Assembly (NCBI GenBank): GCA_026075535.2
Contig: AP026539.1
Span: 5,146,001-5,210,000, forward strand
Direction of reading: 5' to 3'
DNA length: 64,000 nucleotides
DNA from: Tricholoma matsutake
Taxonomy: Eukaryota; Basidiomycota; Agaricomycetes; Agaricales; Tricholomataceae
Shown: in pieces, positions 361 through 11,357 of the stretch
Layout of the letters: each line of letters opens with the position of its first letter
How positions within the stretch are numbered: position 1 is the stretch's first letter
Notes under the pieces: model-generated
What the model saw: only the letters and a program-made list of their open reading frames with translations
The model's database searches: none
What the model was told of the DNA's origin: nothing
Position numbers and translations under genes: made by a program

Positions 361-3266
361 TCATGACCAGAACTCATCCTCTTCATCAATCTCATCAGTT
401 TCATCATCATTCTCCTCTGTGTCATGTTCCACCTGCTCACCCCTCATTTGCTTCTCAACAATCTTGATGGTCTCTGAAAGTCCTGGATAAAGTGGGGTTT
501 TGGCCCATGACCCAACTGCAACCTGAGCTTTGAATGTCTGTGGGCTGGTGCTATGCTGGAGATGGTTGACCTCAAGTCTGCCAACTGAAAATGGACATTC
601 AGCATCAACTGATGAAGCTGTCATACATAATGTCTGAGTAGGTGCACAAATTAATACAATTTATACTGACCTGGTGCTGAATAAAAATCAAGTCCCATCT
701 TTCCTACACGAGATCGATGCTCAGTTGGTTGATTCCAGTATTTCATATATCCTCCAGCCTCCTTGACGGCAGAGGATTTGATGACTGGATCAGCCAAGTA
801 GGTAAGAATGGTGTTGGTATTTTGATTATTGTCAGATTCAGTTGGGACAACCCATTTTGATTTTGCCTGCAAACCAATCATAATCCTCCAAATTCATCCA
901 CCAAATTCAAAACTCACCTTGCCTCTCTGTGGCACTGCAAGGGCAGGAGGTAAAACTTCCTCATCTCCCTTATATGACTCATTCCAATGACTGAGAACCG
1001 TCTTCTTGATATCTTGGATTTGGGCAGCTGTGTGACCATGATCCTTGAACCATTTGAGCTTCTTATCAGGACACATGACTGTGTAGTGTCAGAACCAAGA
1101 AATGATAGAATATTCCACACTTACCAATAGCAATGACATATAGTTCAGTTTCCTTCATAAGAGTGTAATACTTGCTGATAAGAATAAGAATGGCCTGTGC
1201 TGCCACACAAACAACATTAGAAAGCTCAGATTCTTCATTGTCACAAACTAGGTTCATGGATTGCTCAATAGAATCTAGCATTGGTAAAACCTCTGCAATA
1301 AGGGGAACCTGAGACTGTGAAAACAATTTTGTTGGCTCCTCAAACACCTGAAAAAAGATTGAATCAATCGTCTGTTCAAACTTCAAAGCAATATAAAACT
1401 GTAACCTCAAGAACAGCACTAAGTGTATCTGCAAGGTTCCACTGGGCTTCTGAAAGTTGATATGCTTGTAGCTTGTTGATTGCAGCACCTGTAAGCTGTT
1501 CAACAGGACTTCTGAAATACAGGTGAGCATCTAAGCATGTGAGATCTGAATTCTATCGAGTAGGAACATGATGATAAAGCATTGTCTTATCACCAGGAAG
1601 ATCTTTGTCATTTGCGACAAGGTTGTCAAACTTCTCTTTAAGTGTTGAATTATCATGAACACGTCAAGCAAGCCCAGCAACCTGTAAATCTATTGTAGCT
1701 TTGTAGCATATGGCATAGTAGTTATTTAGACTTACTCAGGGAAAAAGTTGAAGAGCCATCTTCTCCTCTTCAGTATCAATTGTAACACCCCTCTCTCTCA
1801 TCTTTTCAATTGCCTGCCCATGGGTGGTTTTGAGAATAGCAGCATCATGGGCATCCTGACCATCATCAGGTACAGATGCAGCATCAGTTGCAATACTTTC
1901 CTCTTCAACAGCAAGATCATCATCAGAGGAATCATCATTTTCAGCAACAACTGTCACTACAATATATTTTAGATGTATTCTCATCAAACATTTATCTGGA
2001 AGCTCACCATTAGAATCTGCAGTTGCCTTCTTTTTTGGCTGCTGAAAAAAGAATGATATAAAAATCTGGGAGTTTGTTAGAAAAATAAAACAAAAGACAA
2101 TGGCCATATATACCTTAGCCAAGAGATTGATAATGTGTGGAAAGCAATGACCACGAGATGCCATCCCACGAAATGATGGAATGAGAGTGGGAAGGTATTT
2201 TGCCAGCCCATCATTGTTACTTGTATTGTCCATACAAATTGAAAGAAGCTAAAACAAGATTAATCATCTTTAGCCAGTTATAAAAAAACTAAATAACAAA
2301 CCAGTTTATCAAGCCCAAAATTATTTTAGACAGTTGGCCATGACCTCAGCAAATACTTCCCATTGTGTTTTTGTGTTAGCCTAGAACATGTAGAAGGCTA
2401 AGCAATTCTGCTAATATTTGGACACCAACTGTATAAATTCCAATACTGCATGGTAGATAACTCCCTCTTGAAACCAAACAACAACAATTCCAAGAAAGGA
2501 TGCAACAATAGGTGCTGTCCATCCATCAAGAACCAAATGAATTGTGCTGTTGAGAGCCTTGGTACATTTGAGCACAACATCCATTACGGGAAAAAAATCA
2601 GAAACACACCATGAAATAGTTACGAACATTTTTCGACATTTCAGCATATATGACTTTAATATCACAGGAAACTGTCTGAGGTGAAGGGAGAATTGTTCCT
2701 GGCTGGAGCATCTCAACCTCAGCCTGATAGTCTTCATCAAGAACTGAATTAAAAGGGCGATGGTTTTTTGCACAACACATAGCAATCATAGTATGGTGAC
2801 CTGCAGGTGAGTATGGTGCTCCAGTACATTGAGGAGCATCACCAGAGACAACACCAAGGCGTTTATCACATGGTTTGACACCATCTTGAAGGTTCTTTGT
2901 TCCATGGCCACTTGACATGCAAGAACACAGGTGAGGAGTATGGTGAACAAGGTCAACCTTGCAACTAAAGGCAAATACCATCTTCAAGGGTTCCTCATTA
3001 TTGTCCACTTCTTGGCAAAGGGAGATGTCATAGTGATCATAGATCTTTGAGCACCAAGCAGACTTTGAAGCCTCTGAATAAATGAAGTAATATAGACCAG
3101 GCCAGCCTGGAGAGGACACCAACAATCTCCTGGTCATGTAAGGACCACACCTCAACATCTGTCTTACTAACAATGGTCTTCTTTGCAGCTCAAGCCTTGA
3201 TAGGAGAGATAAGGACAGCTGGCTGCTCAACAGGCTCAAGTGTAGTTGGTCTGGCTCTTCCTGCAC
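361..3266 (-). pseudogene. hAT-family transposase, multi-exon, degraded
   Basis: A cut-and-paste transposase of the hAT superfamily read on the minus strand in several short blocks separated by introns and probable lesions. In order: a cysteine/histidine stretch near 2930-2850 that may be the BED finger; a conserved helical block around 2790-2620 (NHRPFNSVLDED); the catalytic-core strand LVLDGWTAP near 2500-2550; the DNTSNNDGLAKYLPTL block followed by RGHCFPHIINLLAK at 2233-2110, a typical hAT RNase H-fold signature; and the C-terminal dimerisation region, with YWNQP at 880-660 and the DAECPFSVGRLEVNHLQHS block at 624-450. The tail is very acidic. Introns of about 50 bp with GTRNGT-like donors fit the gaps. 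No intact single frame exists, and CpG is scarce, so I treat it as a decayed copy. The family is clear; the exact exon borders are not. Confidence 0.75.
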
Positions 3267-3640
3267 CCTGTACAGCTGGGAAGTGTTGATGAGGCATTCT
3301 TACGTGCTACAGAGGGTGGAAGGGAACAAAGAATGGCAAAACACCAACACAATGACCTGCCAGCAATAAGCGGAGTTCAAAGCGCATTTTGCATGAGTGT
3401 TTGACACACCTAGCCCAGTGACCATCCCTCGTGTGAGAAGAGCAAGTGTCAATTGGGATTGACACTCTCATCCCCACGAGGCAGTGGTCATGAGTCTACA
3501 GCATGCCTTACCCTATGGGTAGACCCACTGTCTCCAGTCAAATCATCCACCAACAGCTCCTGCACCTGAGAAGACCCACAATTGCAGGCTCCTTCAAACA
3601 CAGGAGCTGATAACAATGACGACACCATGTCATTGTCATC
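3267..3640. other. no gene recognised
   Basis: Upstream flank of the hAT remnant. There are short open frames on the minus strand but none shows a family pattern. The distal part leads into the first module of the palindrome-ended repeat cluster. Confidence 0.4.
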
Positions 3641-3768
3641 AGGGCTGGGGTAGCACAGAAGAGGATCCACTCTGCAAGCAGTTGCTTGTGGGTGTGGGTG
3701 TCATCTTGTACTACTAGACTCATAGGGTAGCAAAGAAAAAGAAAAAACAATAAAAAAATAAACTTACA

Positions 3769-3796
3769 GCCCAAGAGATGTCAATGTCTCTTGGGC
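3769..3796. repeat. palindrome of the module family
   Basis: Perfect 10-bp arms GCCCAAGAGA / TCTCTTGGGC around an 8-base centre, directly preceded on the plus strand by AACTTACA (GTAAGT on the minus strand). Confidence 0.85.
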
Positions 3797-4463
3797 CCTT
3801 TTTGTGCACACCTCCTTTCGTCATTGTCATCAGCCATAGTTGTGCCCCCTCCCATCATTGGTACCTTGCTGCTTGCATGCCCCCCTCCCATCATCATCTC
3901 CCTCCCCCTTTGTCTCTCTTCCCCCCATCTCTTGACCCTGCGAGCAGGGGCTCTCAGCAGTGCCACCTGCCATTGTGTTTGTTGGTGCCGAATGTGCCTT
4001 GCTCGTCGTTGCCATGTTGTTGTTCATCATCCCCACTGTTTGTTTGTTGCCTCCCCTGTTCGTTCATCTTCCCCGCTCTTCATTATCCCCCATGTTTGTT
4101 GCCCTGCCATTTGGTGTTTGTTCATTGGTGTTCATTTGTGGGCGTTCATTTGTTGGCATTCATTTGTTGGTGTCATCATTTGATGTCCTGGTTCCATCAT
4201 CGTCAGCACCTCTATCTCCCCCTGCAAGCAGTGGCTTGCAGGTGGGGTGGTGGTGCTGTGACGTGGTGTCGGCTGTGGTGTGGTGTTGATGTTGCTGTTT
4301 AGGAATGGAACCCATTGCCACCCTGCGAGCAGAGGCTTGCAGCAGCGGCGTAGGGCATAGGGCATGGAGAGGGCATGGGTGTGATGTGGGAGATGTCATA
4401 GGCAAACAAAAAGAAACTAGAGAAGTAAAAGAAAAGAAAATAAATAAAAGAAACATATGCTAT

Positions 4464-4494
4464 GGCCCAAACGACATTGTTCATTGTTTGGGCC
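4464..4494. repeat. palindrome of the module family
   Basis: Nine-bp perfect arms GGCCCAAAC / GTTTGGGCC around a 13-base centre. This copy has a two-base deletion relative to the longest family members. Confidence 0.8.
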
Positions 4495-4508
4495 AGCTTT
4501 GCACTGCA

Positions 4509-4535
4509 GTGGTGGTGGTGGTGGTGGTGGTGGTG
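4509..4535 (+). repeat. (GTG)n microsatellite
   Basis: About nine uninterrupted GTG triplets directly 3' of the 4464-4494 palindrome. Confidence 0.9.
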
Positions 4536-4981
4536 TCCCCTGTCACCATTGCAGCATCATTGTGGGCCCATCGTAGCATGAGAGGTGGGCCAGTCATTGT
4601 CATCAATAGTAGTTAGTATCTATAAAAAATTGTTAGTGATGAAAAAATGACACGAGAAAAGCAAAAAGAAATTTACCTGGAGCCCAAGAGACATTGATGA
4701 CATCCTCCTCCCTTGTGCATCGTCCTCACCCTGTCATCATCATCGCCACCATCATCATCCTGCCATCACCATCCTCCCCCTGTCATCATGGACCTCAGGT
4801 GGTCCTGGTCCTGGTCCTTGTTTCCCTGGTCTGGTCCTCATTGATGTTCAGTCATTCCTGGTCCCAGTTGTTGTTGTTGTTGTTGTTGTGTCAGTGTGGG
4901 GTTCATCACCATTGTTGGCAACAGCTAGAACTAGTAATTAGTTAGTAACAATAAAATGAAATGAAATGAAACTTACATACG

Positions 4982-5012
4982 GCCCAAGAAATGTTGTCGA
5001 CATTTCTTGGGC
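4982..5012. repeat. palindrome of the module family
   Basis: Thirteen-bp perfect arms GCCCAAGAAATGT / ACATTTCTTGGGC around a five-base centre; GTAAGT follows on the minus strand at about 4976-4971. Confidence 0.85.
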
Positions 5013-5245
5013 ACTCCACATTTGGTTATCCTCACCTCAAGTTTATAAATGGGGGGTGGTCGTGATGTGCATCCTAAGTGATGCAAACGCAAGCCTGAGT
5101 GTTCTCGGATGACTCATACCAGTGTCTTTCCATATTTGGCACTAACATCTGCAATCCGCAGATATCCATCACATTTTATCTGTATCCATCTGTATCCATA
5201 TGTTTACATAATCCATGGGTGGCTATCCGGATAATGGCCATCCAT

Positions 5246-5254
5246 GGTAGGCCC
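5246..5254. repeat. 9-bp target-site duplication, left copy
   Basis: GGTAGGCCC. The identical nine bases stand at 11349-11357, immediately outside the opposite terminal inverted repeat. Confidence 0.85.
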
Positions 5255-5440
5255 CAGCCTCCTTCCCATGCCCTACTTTGCAGTTGAGAAAAAAAAACAT
5301 TTATCTAATCTAATCTGAATGACAAATTTATTGAAAGTCAGTAACTCTATTTTTTTGAACCACTCTGTAGGGCCTGGCACAAAATGTTTGTCAACAACCT
5401 CAGCCATGGTGGCCAGTGACAGCGGGCTGTCAATTGACAA
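5255..5440 (+). repeat. left terminal inverted repeat of the RecQ/DUF6589 element
   Basis: Inverted copy of 11163-11348. It contains a nine-A tract and ends with the 12-bp palindrome TGTCAATTGACA (5428-5439). The helicase reading frame starts about 58 bp further in. Confidence 0.9.
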
Positions 5441-5497
5441 CTTAATTAGGATAAAATATAATTTTCCATCTTCGGTTTTTTTCTCATTATTCTCTGT

Positions 5498-8034
5498 ATG
5501 GCTGCTCCTTTGATCCCTTTGCTATCTGAAATACAGAACCACACTGAGACTGTCTTTGGCTGTCGGCCATGTCTTTGGCAGATCAAGATCGTTGAGGCCA
5601 TTCTCAAGTGAGACCGAGATGTTGCCTCAATAGCTGGAACTGGGATGGGGAAAACTCTTATGTTCTGGATGCCATTGCTTTTCTGACCAAAAGGCAGTGT
5701 ACAGATCATTGTAACCCCATTGAACATTTTAGGAAAGCAGAATGTTGAGTTGCTAAGAAAGGCTGGATTGAAAGCTATTTTCATCAGTGCCGACACAGCA
5801 ACTGCCAAAAACTTCTGGGTATGTGTTTAGTATTGTTAACTATCTTTCAAAATTGACAGTGTAATATCTGTGATAGGCTATTGAGGATCTAGAGTACCAG
5901 GCTGTCATCATCAATCCTGAACAGTTGATGAAGGCAGGTGGTGGATTTGAGCAGCTTGTTAAGAAGGAAGACTTTACCAATCACATGATTAGTGTAATCT
6001 GTGATGAAGCCCATTGTATCAGTGCCTGGGGTGAATTTTGGCCAGAATAAAAAGAAGTCCACCTTCGCTACATCCTCCCAAAGAATATTTCCATCATGAT
6101 CACATTGGCCACACTCCCTCTTTAGTCTTCAATGATGTAAAGGAGATTCTTCAGCTTCATTCTGATAAACTTGTTATTTTTCACTGTTCAAGTGATTGAC
6201 CCAATATCCATCTTGTGGTTCATGCAATCCAAAGTTCACTCAGCAGCTTTGCAGACATCGAGTTTATACTTTGCAACTGAAAACCAGGAGACCCTCCTCC
6301 TCCAAAATTCCTAGTTTTTTCAATGATATTAATGACACCATCAAGGCTTGCAACCATATCTGATCCCTCCTAGGACCCACTAGACCTTCGTGATAAGGTT
6401 AATTGGTTTCATTTGGAGATGTCAAATGCTTTCAAGACCGAGGAAGCTCTCCACTTTATGGCTGGAGATTTCTGGGGCCTCTTCACAACAGATTCATTTG
6501 GAATGGTGCGTGCATCTGATACTGCAACAGCTTGTATCAATTACTCATCCTAGTGCTCTCTATGTAGGGAATGGATGTTCCCGGTGTACAATTGGTTGTG
6601 CAATGGAAGGTGACATGTTCCCTTGCTGCACTATGGCAGAGATTTGGCAGGGGAGGCTGTGATCAAGCTCACGAAGCAACTGCTGTATTTTTGGTAGAAA
6701 AAGAACACTTTGATGAGGAGTGCAAGAAAAAGGAAGCACAGAAGAAGACTAAAGCTGGGGCCCAGACCAAGTGGAAAGCTTCAAAACAGAAAACTGTGCC
6801 AACCCCTGCAAAGTGGCGTTGGACTGAGGTGGATAGCAATTTGACACCCAACCATGCAACTATGGAAATGGATATCGAGGATCTGTGTGGGAGCCAGTCA
6901 GAGGATTCAGATGCATGCGCAGCCAATGACGAAGCAGATTCAATACTGATAATGGTTCCGGAGATCCAAGCGACAATGATTGAGGAACTCCAGGCTAAGT
7001 ACTGAGACAAGGGGAGGCCAGCACCAAAGAAGAAACTCAAGGTACTTGAACCTGCAATGCTTGACTTTATCAATGCAGGGGTCCGAGGTCTGAAATGTCA
7101 TCGTGTTCCACTCGATGTGTACTTTGAGAATAGCAAAGCTTGTATGTGATTGATTTGATAGTCGTGCGCACTTAACATTATATTTCTGACAGCTTCTGAT
7201 CACATGGAATGTAACACATCTCAGGATCACAGGTGTTTGCATTGCAGTCTTCCACCATCACTTTTATGCTGTGACCTTCATAATTCTGAAGCATCCTCTG
7301 CCTTTCTCTGTCACCGTGACGGTATTCCTGCACCCAAAACAATGCAGCTGCCTGCACGATCATGCATTGATACAAACTACAAGATGACAGTGGACAATAT
7401 GGGCCTTTGTAATGCACTCGAGGACTGGCAGGAGGCGAAAACAGCATATCAGTATGGTGAAGCACACCTGGAAGACCTTGGTCCAGCACTCGTAATTGTT
7501 AGGAAATCACCCCATTACCTAATAAAATTTCATTTTATTTTATTATGTCGAATTACACTACATGACGCCAAATGACGCTACACTTTGATAGCATGAGAAT
7601 TTTATTTCGCATGCATCAAAATGTATGCGCATGTACAAGTGCGTCAGTAACAACAATGTACAATATGTGTAACATAGTATATAAACCCTAAATATATGCC
7701 TAGGGGACCCCAGTTGTGTTCTCTTAGGTATTCCACCTATGTTTTTGGTGTGAAAGGCCTATCTCAACAAACTCACCTATTAATAACCCCTCGCATCAAA
7801 ACCATCAATTCCCCCATCACGAGTGCGGATCCCGCCCCCTTCTTGTAGAGAGAACCCACACGGTCTTAGCTAGCAGATAGTGGGTGTCGCCCTAACAGTA
7901 ATGCCAACTTTAGTTCTCAATCATATTATGGACTGCTCTCATTATTTCAAGATTGGTTCAATGGCTGACCTTAAAAAGGAGATGCGATGGGACAAGTCAG
8001 ATCAGTAGGGGGATAAAGTGGTTGAGATGATTCA
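5498..8034 (+). pseudogene. RecQ-like SF2 DNA helicase, disrupted
   Basis: ATP-dependent superfamily II helicase of the RecQ type that is abundant in agaricomycete genomes. I chose the ATG at 5498, since the frame then runs into the helicase core. Walker A AGTGMGKT lies near 5630-5655, the VTPLN strand near 5710, motif II DEAHC near 6005, and motif VI QRFGRGG near 6632-6650. A cysteine cluster (about 7205-7275: CNTS, HRCLHC, LLCCD) follows, as in RecQ zinc-binding tails. Lesions: TGA at 5609-5611, TGA at 5684-5686 and TGA near 6196-6198, each where the family usually has another residue (arginine in the best matches); further stops and frame changes in 6040-6400; and a solo LTR at 7497-7897. 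The frame continues after the LTR if the insertion and one duplication copy are set aside. The gene converges on the DUF6589 gene. It is not functional as it stands. Confidence 0.8.
7492..7902 (+). mobile_element. solo LTR (7497-7897) with 5-bp duplication GTAAT, inside the helicase gene
   Basis: A 401-bp sequence with termini TGTTAGG...CCTAACA, flanked on both sides by GTAAT (7492-7496 and 7898-7902). A TATATAAACC box at about 7678-7688 gives a likely plus orientation. No internal retrotransposon sequence is present, so this is a solo LTR left by recombination between the two LTRs. Its ends resemble Copia-type LTRs, but it is unlike the 305-bp LTR at 14.0 and 19.5 kb. Confidence 0.9.
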
Positions 8035-8385
8035 ATGATTATGTCCACAGCCACCACCCACTATCCTGATGACCACCACTCTGCGTCCACTAGCACTCAC
8101 AACCACTACTCCACCCACTCTTTCAAACTGAAATGGTGGACTTACATCGGGCCCAGGAGCTCTGCCATCAGTGGGGGAAGCAGTGCCACCCAAAGTTTGT
8201 GCAAAGGCCCTGTGGTGCCGTTGGTCATACTAGTGAGTGTTTACTTAATTTCACAGATTTGTATGATGTTGAAATTTTGAGCACAGTGTGAAACTGCCAA
8301 TGTCTACATCACGCAAACAATTCCACAACATCCTCATCTAAGGAAAATATTGGTACAGCGCCGTAAGATCAGTTCTTATTGCTGG

Positions 8386-11066
8386 TCATATCAGTTCAAC
8401 TATCACATCCTCTGCTTCAATCAAGTTTCCCTCATCTAAATCTGATGTTTCACCTACCCCATCATCAACCTTCGAAGGGCTCTGGAAAAGCTCTTGCCAT
8501 CGATCAACCATATCTAAGATTCTGTATGTCGTTTTACATCCAGTTGTAATTTTATGAGGATTTTGTTCTGTAATGTGTTTTTGCACCAGCTCAAAAGTTT
8601 GCCTCATGTCGGGGTCTGCATGTAATGTCATTAGATGTGTCAGTACAAAGTTTCCCTCAATGGTAGTTCAGATATCTCAGTACACCTGTACCAATGGTGA
8701 CTCTTTGATGATACGCCGAACAGTATGGTTTGATCCTTGCCCACCATGTTCAGCCTATGTATCTCAATTTGGGCACACTTTCAAGTTGAGTGCATACTTA
8801 CTTTTGTATATAGGTTGTTGAGCTTGACACACCAGTCTACTGCACAAAACTTGCCAGCCTTTCCAGTAGGGTTGACCAGGATGCTATATCGAACTGCATG
8901 TCTACCATTCAAAGTTCAGCAAGTAGTACAATGACAGCCAGAAGCTAGCTGAATGCTGCACTTTAGGCCTGCATGGTAGAGAAAGTGGACATCCCCCAAG
9001 AATCTTAACATGTGAGCAGCATATTTGTGCTTGCCTGTTGCTTTGAATATAAGAATCCGTGGTACTAGCCAAGCCTCAACCCTCCCAATGTCACCAGTAT
9101 TCATTGTGTGTGATATCTCCTCATACAATAAGCAGTACTTGTTGAGAAGTAGGGTATTTTCATATTGTGCATCACATTGAGCTTCAGGTTGGGCTCTCAG
9201 TCACTGCATTCTGCCACCTGCAACATACTTCCTTGTGATGCAGTCAGCCATTTCCTGCAGTAGTTCAAAGCTGGGTTTTGACTGGGTGAAGAGCTCCAGT
9301 GTTGTATGCTCTGCATTCTGTTGGAAAGCTTCCATCCTCCAGCAATCAAGGCACCTACAAATCCCAACATGTCCAATTACTTGGTGCATTCAGCGGAAGC
9401 CTGGCTTCAAAGCAATTATTCCTGTTTCCTTTGGGCGCAACTTAGAAATGTCATGCATAAGACAGGTGTCGTCCACTCTTCCCTCTGGAGGCTGAATAAA
9501 TATATGCCACAGTGCATCAGTGCATGCCATTTTTACATGGAATAGGCCAGGAACAAAGACAGCAAATTGAAATCAGTTCCATGCTGACTTTTCAATTGCG
9601 CGGTGTGATTGAATGCTGAGGAGGCGGTCACCCATCCCAAGATCACCATGGAACAAAACTACATACGGTGTAATGTCTACCACCTTATCCTGAATCTCTG
9701 GATCATTAGGGTCACCAACACCACCTTGTTCAGCAAGATTTTTTACTGTGCTGATATTTCTGGAAACCATTGAATTGCTGAATTCCATGATGCGTGCTGG
9801 AATTGTTGGTGTTTTCACAACAGGGATTTGTTCAATCACCTCTGCATCACCAATGTTTGCTCAGAACTGTGCAAAGTAATTCGGCCCATGATGGCAGAGA
9901 TTCCATAGAAATTTCCAAGAATTAAAATAGGTGTGCCATGTCAAACCACTAGGATGGTTTCCTTCAGGATGCAAAGTAAAAAGGTCTTTCCAGGTGCTGC
10001 CCACAGGCAGGTCAGAGATATTGACCCTTGTATTGAGCCGCGACTGGCTCCATAGCTCTTCTGAACACCTCATGTCCTCCCATGTTACACCATGTTGAAA
10101 AGGGAAAATGATGGCAGATGTCAAGTGCTTCAGCGTGTCCTCAGATTTTTCAGTGGTGTGTATCGAGAGCTTCAGGTCAACATCAAAATTGTCATAAGCA
10201 TAGAATGTGAGCAATGTCTGGCCAAGGTCACGGAGGACTTTTGCTGACTTTGTGGACAGGGATGTAATTGCCTGATGAATTGCATTGATGGAGATTGATA
10301 TTCCCATGCGCATGAGAGTCTCTATTACTGTTTTGGGTGTCTTACATGAGTGGAGGAATATTCCAATGATACTTTCAAGTGCATTGACTTTCTGGCTTGT
10401 GCTCTGCATGACGATACCAATGACAACAACTTGTTTCTGCCAACTGCATGAATATCTGTATGTCATTTCATGTACACAAAGGGATGGGCTTATGACTTGA
10501 ATGATTGCCTCCTGTCTGGCAATATTCCTGTGCACGCATGCACCCAGATCATCGACAATCTTCTCAATGATTCCCTCGAGGTCAAGGTCTGCAAAATGAT
10601 CCCAATATTCGCTATCACCACCATCATTCAACACCCTGGTGTTCATCTCAGTCTCATGTTCTACCTTCCTCCCTCCAACCTTGGTTGCTGACATCAAGAG
10701 TTCCAATAGATCCCACAACCAAGGAGCAGTTGCTTGCATTTGCTCCGCCATCTCCTCAATTCGGAAATCTTCAATCTGTTCAGCTGACACGTGAACAGCA
10801 CTGAACTCCCACCCATGCCTCCCCTGGACAAGATTCACAATATCACTTTTATACTTCTCTTTGGCAAAATCACAGACCCAATTCAGACCAGATTCCCCAG
10901 ATGAGTTTGTCAATGTGGTGCATATCTCATGCGAGTTGGAAATGAGACCACACACAATGGGGTGTTCAGCATAGTGTTGATTAGACAAGAGGTCTACTAT
11001 AAATTTGGATATATCAAGCTGATGAACATGAAGAATTTCTAGGATATTGTCAAGCTGGGAGCTCAT
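8386..11066 (-). pseudogene. DUF6589-family protein, broken only by TGA codons
   Basis: A two-exon gene: exon 1 11066-8802, a 47-bp intron with a GTAAGT donor and an ATAG acceptor (8801-8755), exon 2 8754-8386. This gives 877 residues with phases that agree exactly. Exon 1 is one unbroken frame apart from TGA at 9861, 9573, 9390, 9201 and 8916; exon 2 has TGA at 8677 and 8668. The C-terminus is acidic. Recognisable blocks: AYDNFDVDLK (about residue 290), HLTSAIIFPFQHGVTW, VLFHGDLGMGDRLLSIQSH (about 470-485), and FVPGLFHVKMACTDALWHIF just after. These match what I recall of DUF6589, a family expanded in agaricomycetes with no proven function. Invariant aspartates in DNFD and HGDL suggest an RNase H-like metal site, which would suit a transposase. 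It starts about 100 bp inside the right TIR and faces the helicase. The family call is firm; the transposase role is inference. Confidence 0.8.
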
Positions 11067-11162
11067 TTATGCACAATATTAGATTGCAATCAATAAGATT
11101 ATCTCGAGGCTACAGGCTACATATATCACTATTGAAACAATACCAAACAAACTGAATATCTA

Positions 11163-11348
11163 TTGTCAATTGACAGCCCACTGTCACTGGTCACCATGGC
11201 TGAGGTTGTTGACAAACATTTTGTGCCAGGCCCTACGGAGCGGTTGAAAAAAATAGAGTTACTGACTTTCAATAAATTTGTCATTCAGATTAGATTAGAT
11301 AAATGTTTTTTTTTCTCAACCGCAAAGTAGGGCATGGGAAGCAGGCTG
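11163..11348 (-). repeat. right terminal inverted repeat of the RecQ/DUF6589 element
   Basis: Inverted copy of 5255-5440. The 12-bp palindrome TGTCAATTGACA stands at its inner end (11164-11175), and GGTAGGCCC follows at its outer end (11349-11357). Confidence 0.9.
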
Positions 11349-11357
11349 GGTAGGCCC

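Follow-up and report, generated by a model that had tools for sequence, protein, structure and literature searches.

Mutator transposons combine long terminal inverted repeats (TIRs) with 9-bp target-site duplications, transposons of the hAT and P-element type duplicate 8 bp, and TIRs are likewise a feature of the Academ transposons, among which the AcademH group reportedly goes back to a founding paper by Kojima in 2020 (Mob DNA 11:15). According to the excerpts of the literature considered here, AcademH elements make 9- or 10-bp duplications and AcademX elements 3- or 4-bp ones, a difference that seems tied to the helicase and nuclease that they encode (PMC10045372). Fungal DEAD and Helicase_C domains have been attributed to AcademH, KolobokH or Helitron elements, and AcademH occurs in Basidiomycota, Ascomycota and Mucoromycota (PMC10799480); Academ insertions have also been described in the mushroom Marasmius oreades (PMC8290104). 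In KolobokH, another group of DNA transposons from fungi, RecQ follows downstream of the domain for the transposase, and Kolobok duplicates TTAA (PMC9587614). Here, we analyzed a stretch of 64,000 nucleotides from another mushroom, Tricholoma matsutake (contig AP026539.1, positions 5,146,001 to 5,210,000; hereafter the window), in which a TIR-bounded element at 5255-11348 contains remnants of a RecQ-family helicase gene and of a DUF6589 (PF20231) gene.

We are confident that this element is an agaricomycete DNA transposon of the AcademH kind, in which DUF6589 would be the DDE transposase and the convergent RecQ helicase its partner, and of which the window holds a broken copy. The element shares with AcademH a helicase beside the (here presumed) transposase, a duplication in the 9-10-bp range and a fungal host range that includes Basidiomycota (PMC10045372 and PMC10799480, as excerpted), as well as TIRs, the arms of which measure 186 bp in the window and 86 nt and 49 nt in two divergent elements of the same genome (L067 and L068). 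It therefore most probably belongs to AcademH, an assignment made from helicase, duplication size and hosts. As fungal AcademH elements with this combination had already been reported, the proposal of an earlier note on this DNA that the element represents an undescribed system is not supported and probably does not hold. No difference from AcademH was established; as to abundance, AcademH has been called low-copy (PMC10799480, as excerpted), and the PF20231 profile gave at least 117 matches in this genome, a count in which a single fragmented copy may figure twice. The same profile had no match in 14 control genomes.

Boundaries, copies and sites without the element

The element is bounded, mobile and repeated in the genome. 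In the window, its arms of 186 bp pair ungapped with 7 mismatches (5255-5440 versus 11163-11348; an inverted-repeat search of the window gave arms of 188 nt at 96%), and an exact 9-bp duplication flanks them. The two gene remnants converge, with the helicase on the plus strand and DUF6589 on the minus strand. The TIRs of 186 bp, the exact duplication and the convergence of the two genes had been noted before, in the earlier note, and were confirmed here. The region is made up as follows:

5246..5254, no strand: left 9-bp target-site duplication, GGTAGGCCC, an exact match to the right copy
5255..5440, plus strand: left TIR, starting CAGCCTCCTTCCC, with 7/186 mismatches relative to the right arm
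5513..8080, plus strand: RecQ-family helicase gene remnant, traced by tblastn with sibling copies, in several frames and with a solo long terminal repeat (LTR) inside
7497..7897, no strand: solo LTR within the RecQ gene, TGTTAGG...CCTAACA, not part of the transposon
8916..11066, minus strand: DUF6589 (PF20231) gene remnant with its ATG at 11066 and five in-frame TGA stops, presumed DDE transposase
11163..11348, minus strand: right TIR, pairing with the left arm
11349..11357, no strand: right 9-bp target-site duplication, GGTAGGCCC

TIR searches of the genome (161,040,721 bases in 13 contigs) located four more two-ended copies, namely C11 (L009), C8 (L010), C3 (L011) and C13 (L025 with L026). 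All five two-ended copies, including that of the window, enclose the two genes in convergent orientation between their TIRs. The 9-bp duplications are exact in the window, C8 and C3 and carry one mismatch in C11 and C13; with about 10.8 kb between its ends, C13 probably holds insertions. Over the longer aligned pieces, C8, C3 and C13 are 92-97% alike, whereas C11 is only 66-73% alike to these three, which indicates distinct subfamilies within the family. Short derivatives consisting of TIRs only were also present. Indeed, six of the ten short loci examined have both ends and amount to three distinct insertions: a 168-bp derivative, C1, with the exact duplication AGGGAGGGC, which was found at three places with identical flanks and is therefore counted as one insertion; a 222-bp derivative, C5 (ATGGGCCCC, exact); and a 227-bp derivative, C2, found at two places, with one mismatch in its duplication. 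The other four short loci (L016, L017, L018 and L028) showed one end only by the same pattern. Thus, a 9-bp duplication matching at 8 or more of 9 positions accompanies five of five two-ended copies and three of three distinct two-ended derivatives. The earlier note had named as support many copies that share the two genes and 9-bp duplications, plus short derivatives reduced to the TIRs, and the search returned such copies and derivatives: the TIRs recur in five two-ended copies, and the four outside the window all carry both genes.

Among eleven places matching the TIR, two contain both genes (C13, as L025 and L026, and L027 (C11), which has one TIR end in the stretch read), L028 is the short derivative mentioned above, and L030 has a DUF6589 piece only, where the edge of the stretch intervenes. 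The other seven (L029 and L031-L036) speak against this picture, as a TIR-like end was accompanied by neither gene in the stretch read. Two of these seven, L034 (496-6594) and L035, are 7-kb stretches that are 96% alike; each has a transposon-like end together with another TIR-like piece of like orientation, and neither matched DUF6589 or RecQ. The inverted ends of C3 extend to 443 bp at 96% (L011:8684-9126 and 3001-3443), meaning that a piece of the RecQ end has been duplicated at the DUF6589 end. Adjoining this copy, at L011:9018-9647, lies an open reading frame (ORF) that by eye looks like the RNase H region encoded by non-LTR retrotransposons.

Repeats related to this retrotransposon-like ORF provided sites without the element. 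When the flanks of C3 were joined with the target present once and searched against the genome, 33 of the 40 matches listed spanned the joined junction, and the four paralogues read (L054-L057; 4/4) ran ungapped through it and held GGTGCGTGT once. For the window element, the three left-flank paralogues that were read continue across the target site for another 4-10 bases, two of them reading GGTAGGCCC and one the one-base variant GGTGGGCCC, and two right-flank paralogues read GGAAGTCAC and not the target; these sites are compatible with, and weakly suggestive of, an insertion. One paralogue of the C2 derivative site (L058) holds the target once, with gaps nearby, and the genome search found no copy of the C1 site without its derivative. 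The left flank of the window element (4955-5256) is itself the end of a repeat with at least 16 near-full-length relatives in the genome among the matches listed, and the transposon was inserted at the very end of this repeat.

The DUF6589 protein and its helicase partner

Two of the six window ORFs scanned match Pfam PF20231 above the cut-off (E 2.5e-9 and 5.9e-19), and a 401-aa window ORF had no Pfam match. With the C8 copy as tblastn query, DUF6589 homology runs from 11066 down to 8958; more coding remnant may possibly lie below 8916, where no family match over the cut-off was obtained. The structures modelled for two homologues of DUF6589 are similar to those of P-element, Hermes and RAG1, and among the chains compared the closest solved folds are those of the P-element and hAT (Hermes) transposases, at 8-12% identity across aligned residues. 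Conserved acidic residues are present. Foldseek with these models gave no significant E, the VIA-align fold comparison covered the chains ranked by Foldseek (so that families outside this ranking stay possible), and a sequence search of solved structures with DUF6589 returned nothing (best E 0.42). Together with the mobile copies and the linkage to RecQ described below, these resemblances make DUF6589 very probably the DDE transposase of the element. The suggestion of the earlier note that DUF6589 is the recombinase gains support, while its statement that no known transposase is present is not borne out, since DUF6589 itself models like DDE transposases.

The element nevertheless differs from P-element and hAT (Hermes) transposons by its 9-bp duplication and its RecQ partner. 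The same note had described the ends as Mutator-like, which is fitting for TIR length and duplication size but goes no further. Pfam Mutator families matched neither the six window ORFs nor six DUF6589 homologues (an unlisted family is still possible), and ISCth4, which we take to be a bacterial relative of Mutator transposases, scored lower than P element and Hermes against the DUF6589 models.

For the helicase, tblastn with sibling copies as queries delineated six pieces in the window (5513-5821, 5985-6119, 6116-6508, 6568-7101, 7180-7524 and 7898-8080). One of the six window ORFs matches Helicase_C below the Pfam cut-off, and the name RecQ is given to the window gene on the basis of its sibling copies and homologues. 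Two exons of the C3 copy (L011) have recQ_fam TIGR00614 as their best match (E 1.1e-7 and 3.5e-16), with scores below the whole-protein cut-off of this model because only pieces were submitted; of two further pieces tested, one (from L010) is matched by different helicase models and the other by none. Solved relatives of the homologue P0122 include WRN, RecQ1, RecQ5 and BLM, and the consensus of 28 helicase homologues retains GTGxGKT, DEAH and QRFGRA, presumably helicase motifs. A zinc knuckle was seen, below the cut-off, in two of five scanned helicase homologues. Telomere-linked fungal RecQ genes (PMC4522978, as excerpted) were considered as the identity of the window gene and set aside, as the latter sits inside TIRs together with DUF6589.

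The two genes are paired beyond the family of the window. We picked the eight best DUF6589 loci of the genome (L059-L066) regardless of their ends. Two of them (L061 and L066) belong to the clade of the window and have the same RecQ in converging orientation. The other six are much more divergent, mostly with 20-28% identity to proteins of the first clade (two short pieces excepted), and a convergent helicase accompanies three of these: L062, which was read further (as L067) on account of a helicase-like ORF next to it, L060, which was then read further (as L068), and L059. L063, L064 and L065 showed no helicase within 1.5 kb, so that the pairing holds for five of the eight loci. Between L067 and L068, identity in the DUF6589 core is 23%, and between L059 and L067 it is 50%; L059 therefore groups with L067, which makes three lineages when the clade of the window is counted. 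The L067 element (1505-7418) follows the same plan with TIRs of another sequence (86 nt) and an exact 9-bp duplication, GCCACAGCC; as a control, random placements on L068 produced exact matches of at least 9 within the same search space 6 times out of 2000. L068 itself has 49-nt TIRs, and no 9-bp duplication was found there. A RecQ-family helicase is present in L067, in L068 and in all five two-ended copies of the first clade, and, for the loci read, both genes thus co-occur inside TIRs in three divergent lineages. By eye, further DUF6589-like ORFs lie beside both divergent elements (L068:8521-9000; L067:1326-1568 and 7503-7802), and L067 may be nested within another such element.

Linkage was also observed in other fungi. 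Relatives of DUF6589 numbered 352 and those of RecQ 220, the best 120 of each were examined, and the named ones are, we assume, agaricomycetes. An organism was given for 80 of 120 DUF6589 rows and 119 of 120 RecQ rows, rows without one were dropped, and the same organism with an equally long contig served as proxy for a shared contig. By this measure, 23 of 41 testable DUF6589 rows (those whose organism occurs in both lists; 23 of the 80 named) share a contig with a RecQ row among the matches listed, and unseen lower hits may hold further pairs; about 2.3 would be expected from size-proportional placement in an assumed 40-Mb genome. The 23 linked rows stem from 20 organisms in 13 genera. Consecutive locus tags occur in Termitomyces (C0992_003987/003988, on a 6.5-kb contig), Coprinellus (NMY22_g13344/g13345) and Pleurotus (EYR36_011614/011613). 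A query from the L068 lineage gave 330 relatives, the best 120 of which all bore new identifiers and included T. matsutake proteins at 78% (over 65% of the query) and 91% (over 38%). Viral contigs gave 77 pattern matches and no relative. The idea of the earlier note that RecQ is a helper of DUF6589 is supported to the extent that RecQ is its frequent partner, both in the unselected loci and in other genera. None of the three outcomes that the note regarded as refuting was observed, although the third, that the two genes might normally be unlinked, was checked in part: most of the unselected loci and of the testable rows are paired, yet three of eight loci lack a nearby helicase.

Decay of the window copy

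With five in-frame stops in DUF6589, every one of them TGA, and a solo LTR in RecQ, the window copy is decayed and looks dead. The RecQ remnant is moreover spread over several frames. The 401-bp solo LTR has its own 5-bp duplication (GTAAT at 7492-7496 and 7898-7902), and helicase homology picks up again at 7898, right after it, indicating that an LTR element was inserted later than the transposon. The description of the transposon as self-contained may therefore be true of the family, but not of this broken copy. Across the PF20231 matches of the genome, in-frame stops also appeared by eye, without a tally, to be mostly TGA, a bias that would be consistent with decay of methylated CpG from CGA to TGA. 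The CpG ratio is 0.30 inside the element and 0.40 in the remaining window; as this depletion is general in the window, it does not mark the element.

Competing explanations and significance

If DUF6589 acts as proposed, it would have an RNase-H-like core interrupted by a long helical insertion, as in the P-element/hAT/RAG1 type, would bind and pair the long TIRs, excise the element rather than copy it, and join it to the target with a 9-base stagger, which would give the 9-bp duplication. The RecQ helicase would presumably unwind the ends, the donor or the gap DNA during transposition or repair, and the recurrence of the gene pair with different TIRs suggests that it is needed rather than a passenger.

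DUF6589 could alternatively define a superfamily apart from Academ, as a DDE lineage of its own that gained RecQ and 9-bp duplications independently. Our literature search found no paper that equates DUF6589 with the transposase of AcademH, nor any that names DUF6589, and PF20231 turned up only in the context of optics, which leaves room for this idea; we nonetheless consider it improbable, because a helicase, 9-10-bp duplications and fungal hosts are the very combination reported for AcademH (PMC10045372 and PMC10799480, as excerpted). An extended form, in which an agaricomycete superfamily with at least three lineages and different ends would require RecQ for transposition and use it to set the 9-bp stagger, appears to us no more probable. 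Far less plausible is a scenario in which both genes are accessory or captured and an unrelated transposase, for instance a Mutator-like one, recognizes the TIRs and moves the element in trans. Long TIRs with 9-bp duplications would suit such elements as well, and the short TIR-only derivatives show that the ends are mobile without the genes. However, divergent clades carry the same pair of genes between other TIRs, the pair is found across 13 genera, and DUF6589 resembles DDE enzymes, with ISCth4 ranking below P element and Hermes. KolobokH, which like this element is a DNA transposon of fungi and has a RecQ helicase (PMC9587614, as excerpted), is a very poor candidate, since it does not fit a 9-bp duplication of varying sequence where Kolobok duplicates the 4-bp TTAA, and its RecQ lies downstream of the transposase domain, whereas the genes here converge from opposite strands. 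That two unrelated gene fragments came by chance to lie within a segmental inverted duplication is hardly conceivable: nothing in its favor was found, and it is contradicted by the five two-ended copies, each flanked by a duplication, and by the paralogous sites that lack the element.

An AcademH-kind transposon with DUF6589 as its likely transposase would suggest a role for a family that is of unknown function in Pfam and abundant in this single genome. Many mushroom proteins annotated as 'hypothetical' or 'P-loop NTPase' would then be probable transposon proteins, and the divergent bounded elements within one genome offer material for testing the role of RecQ in transposition.
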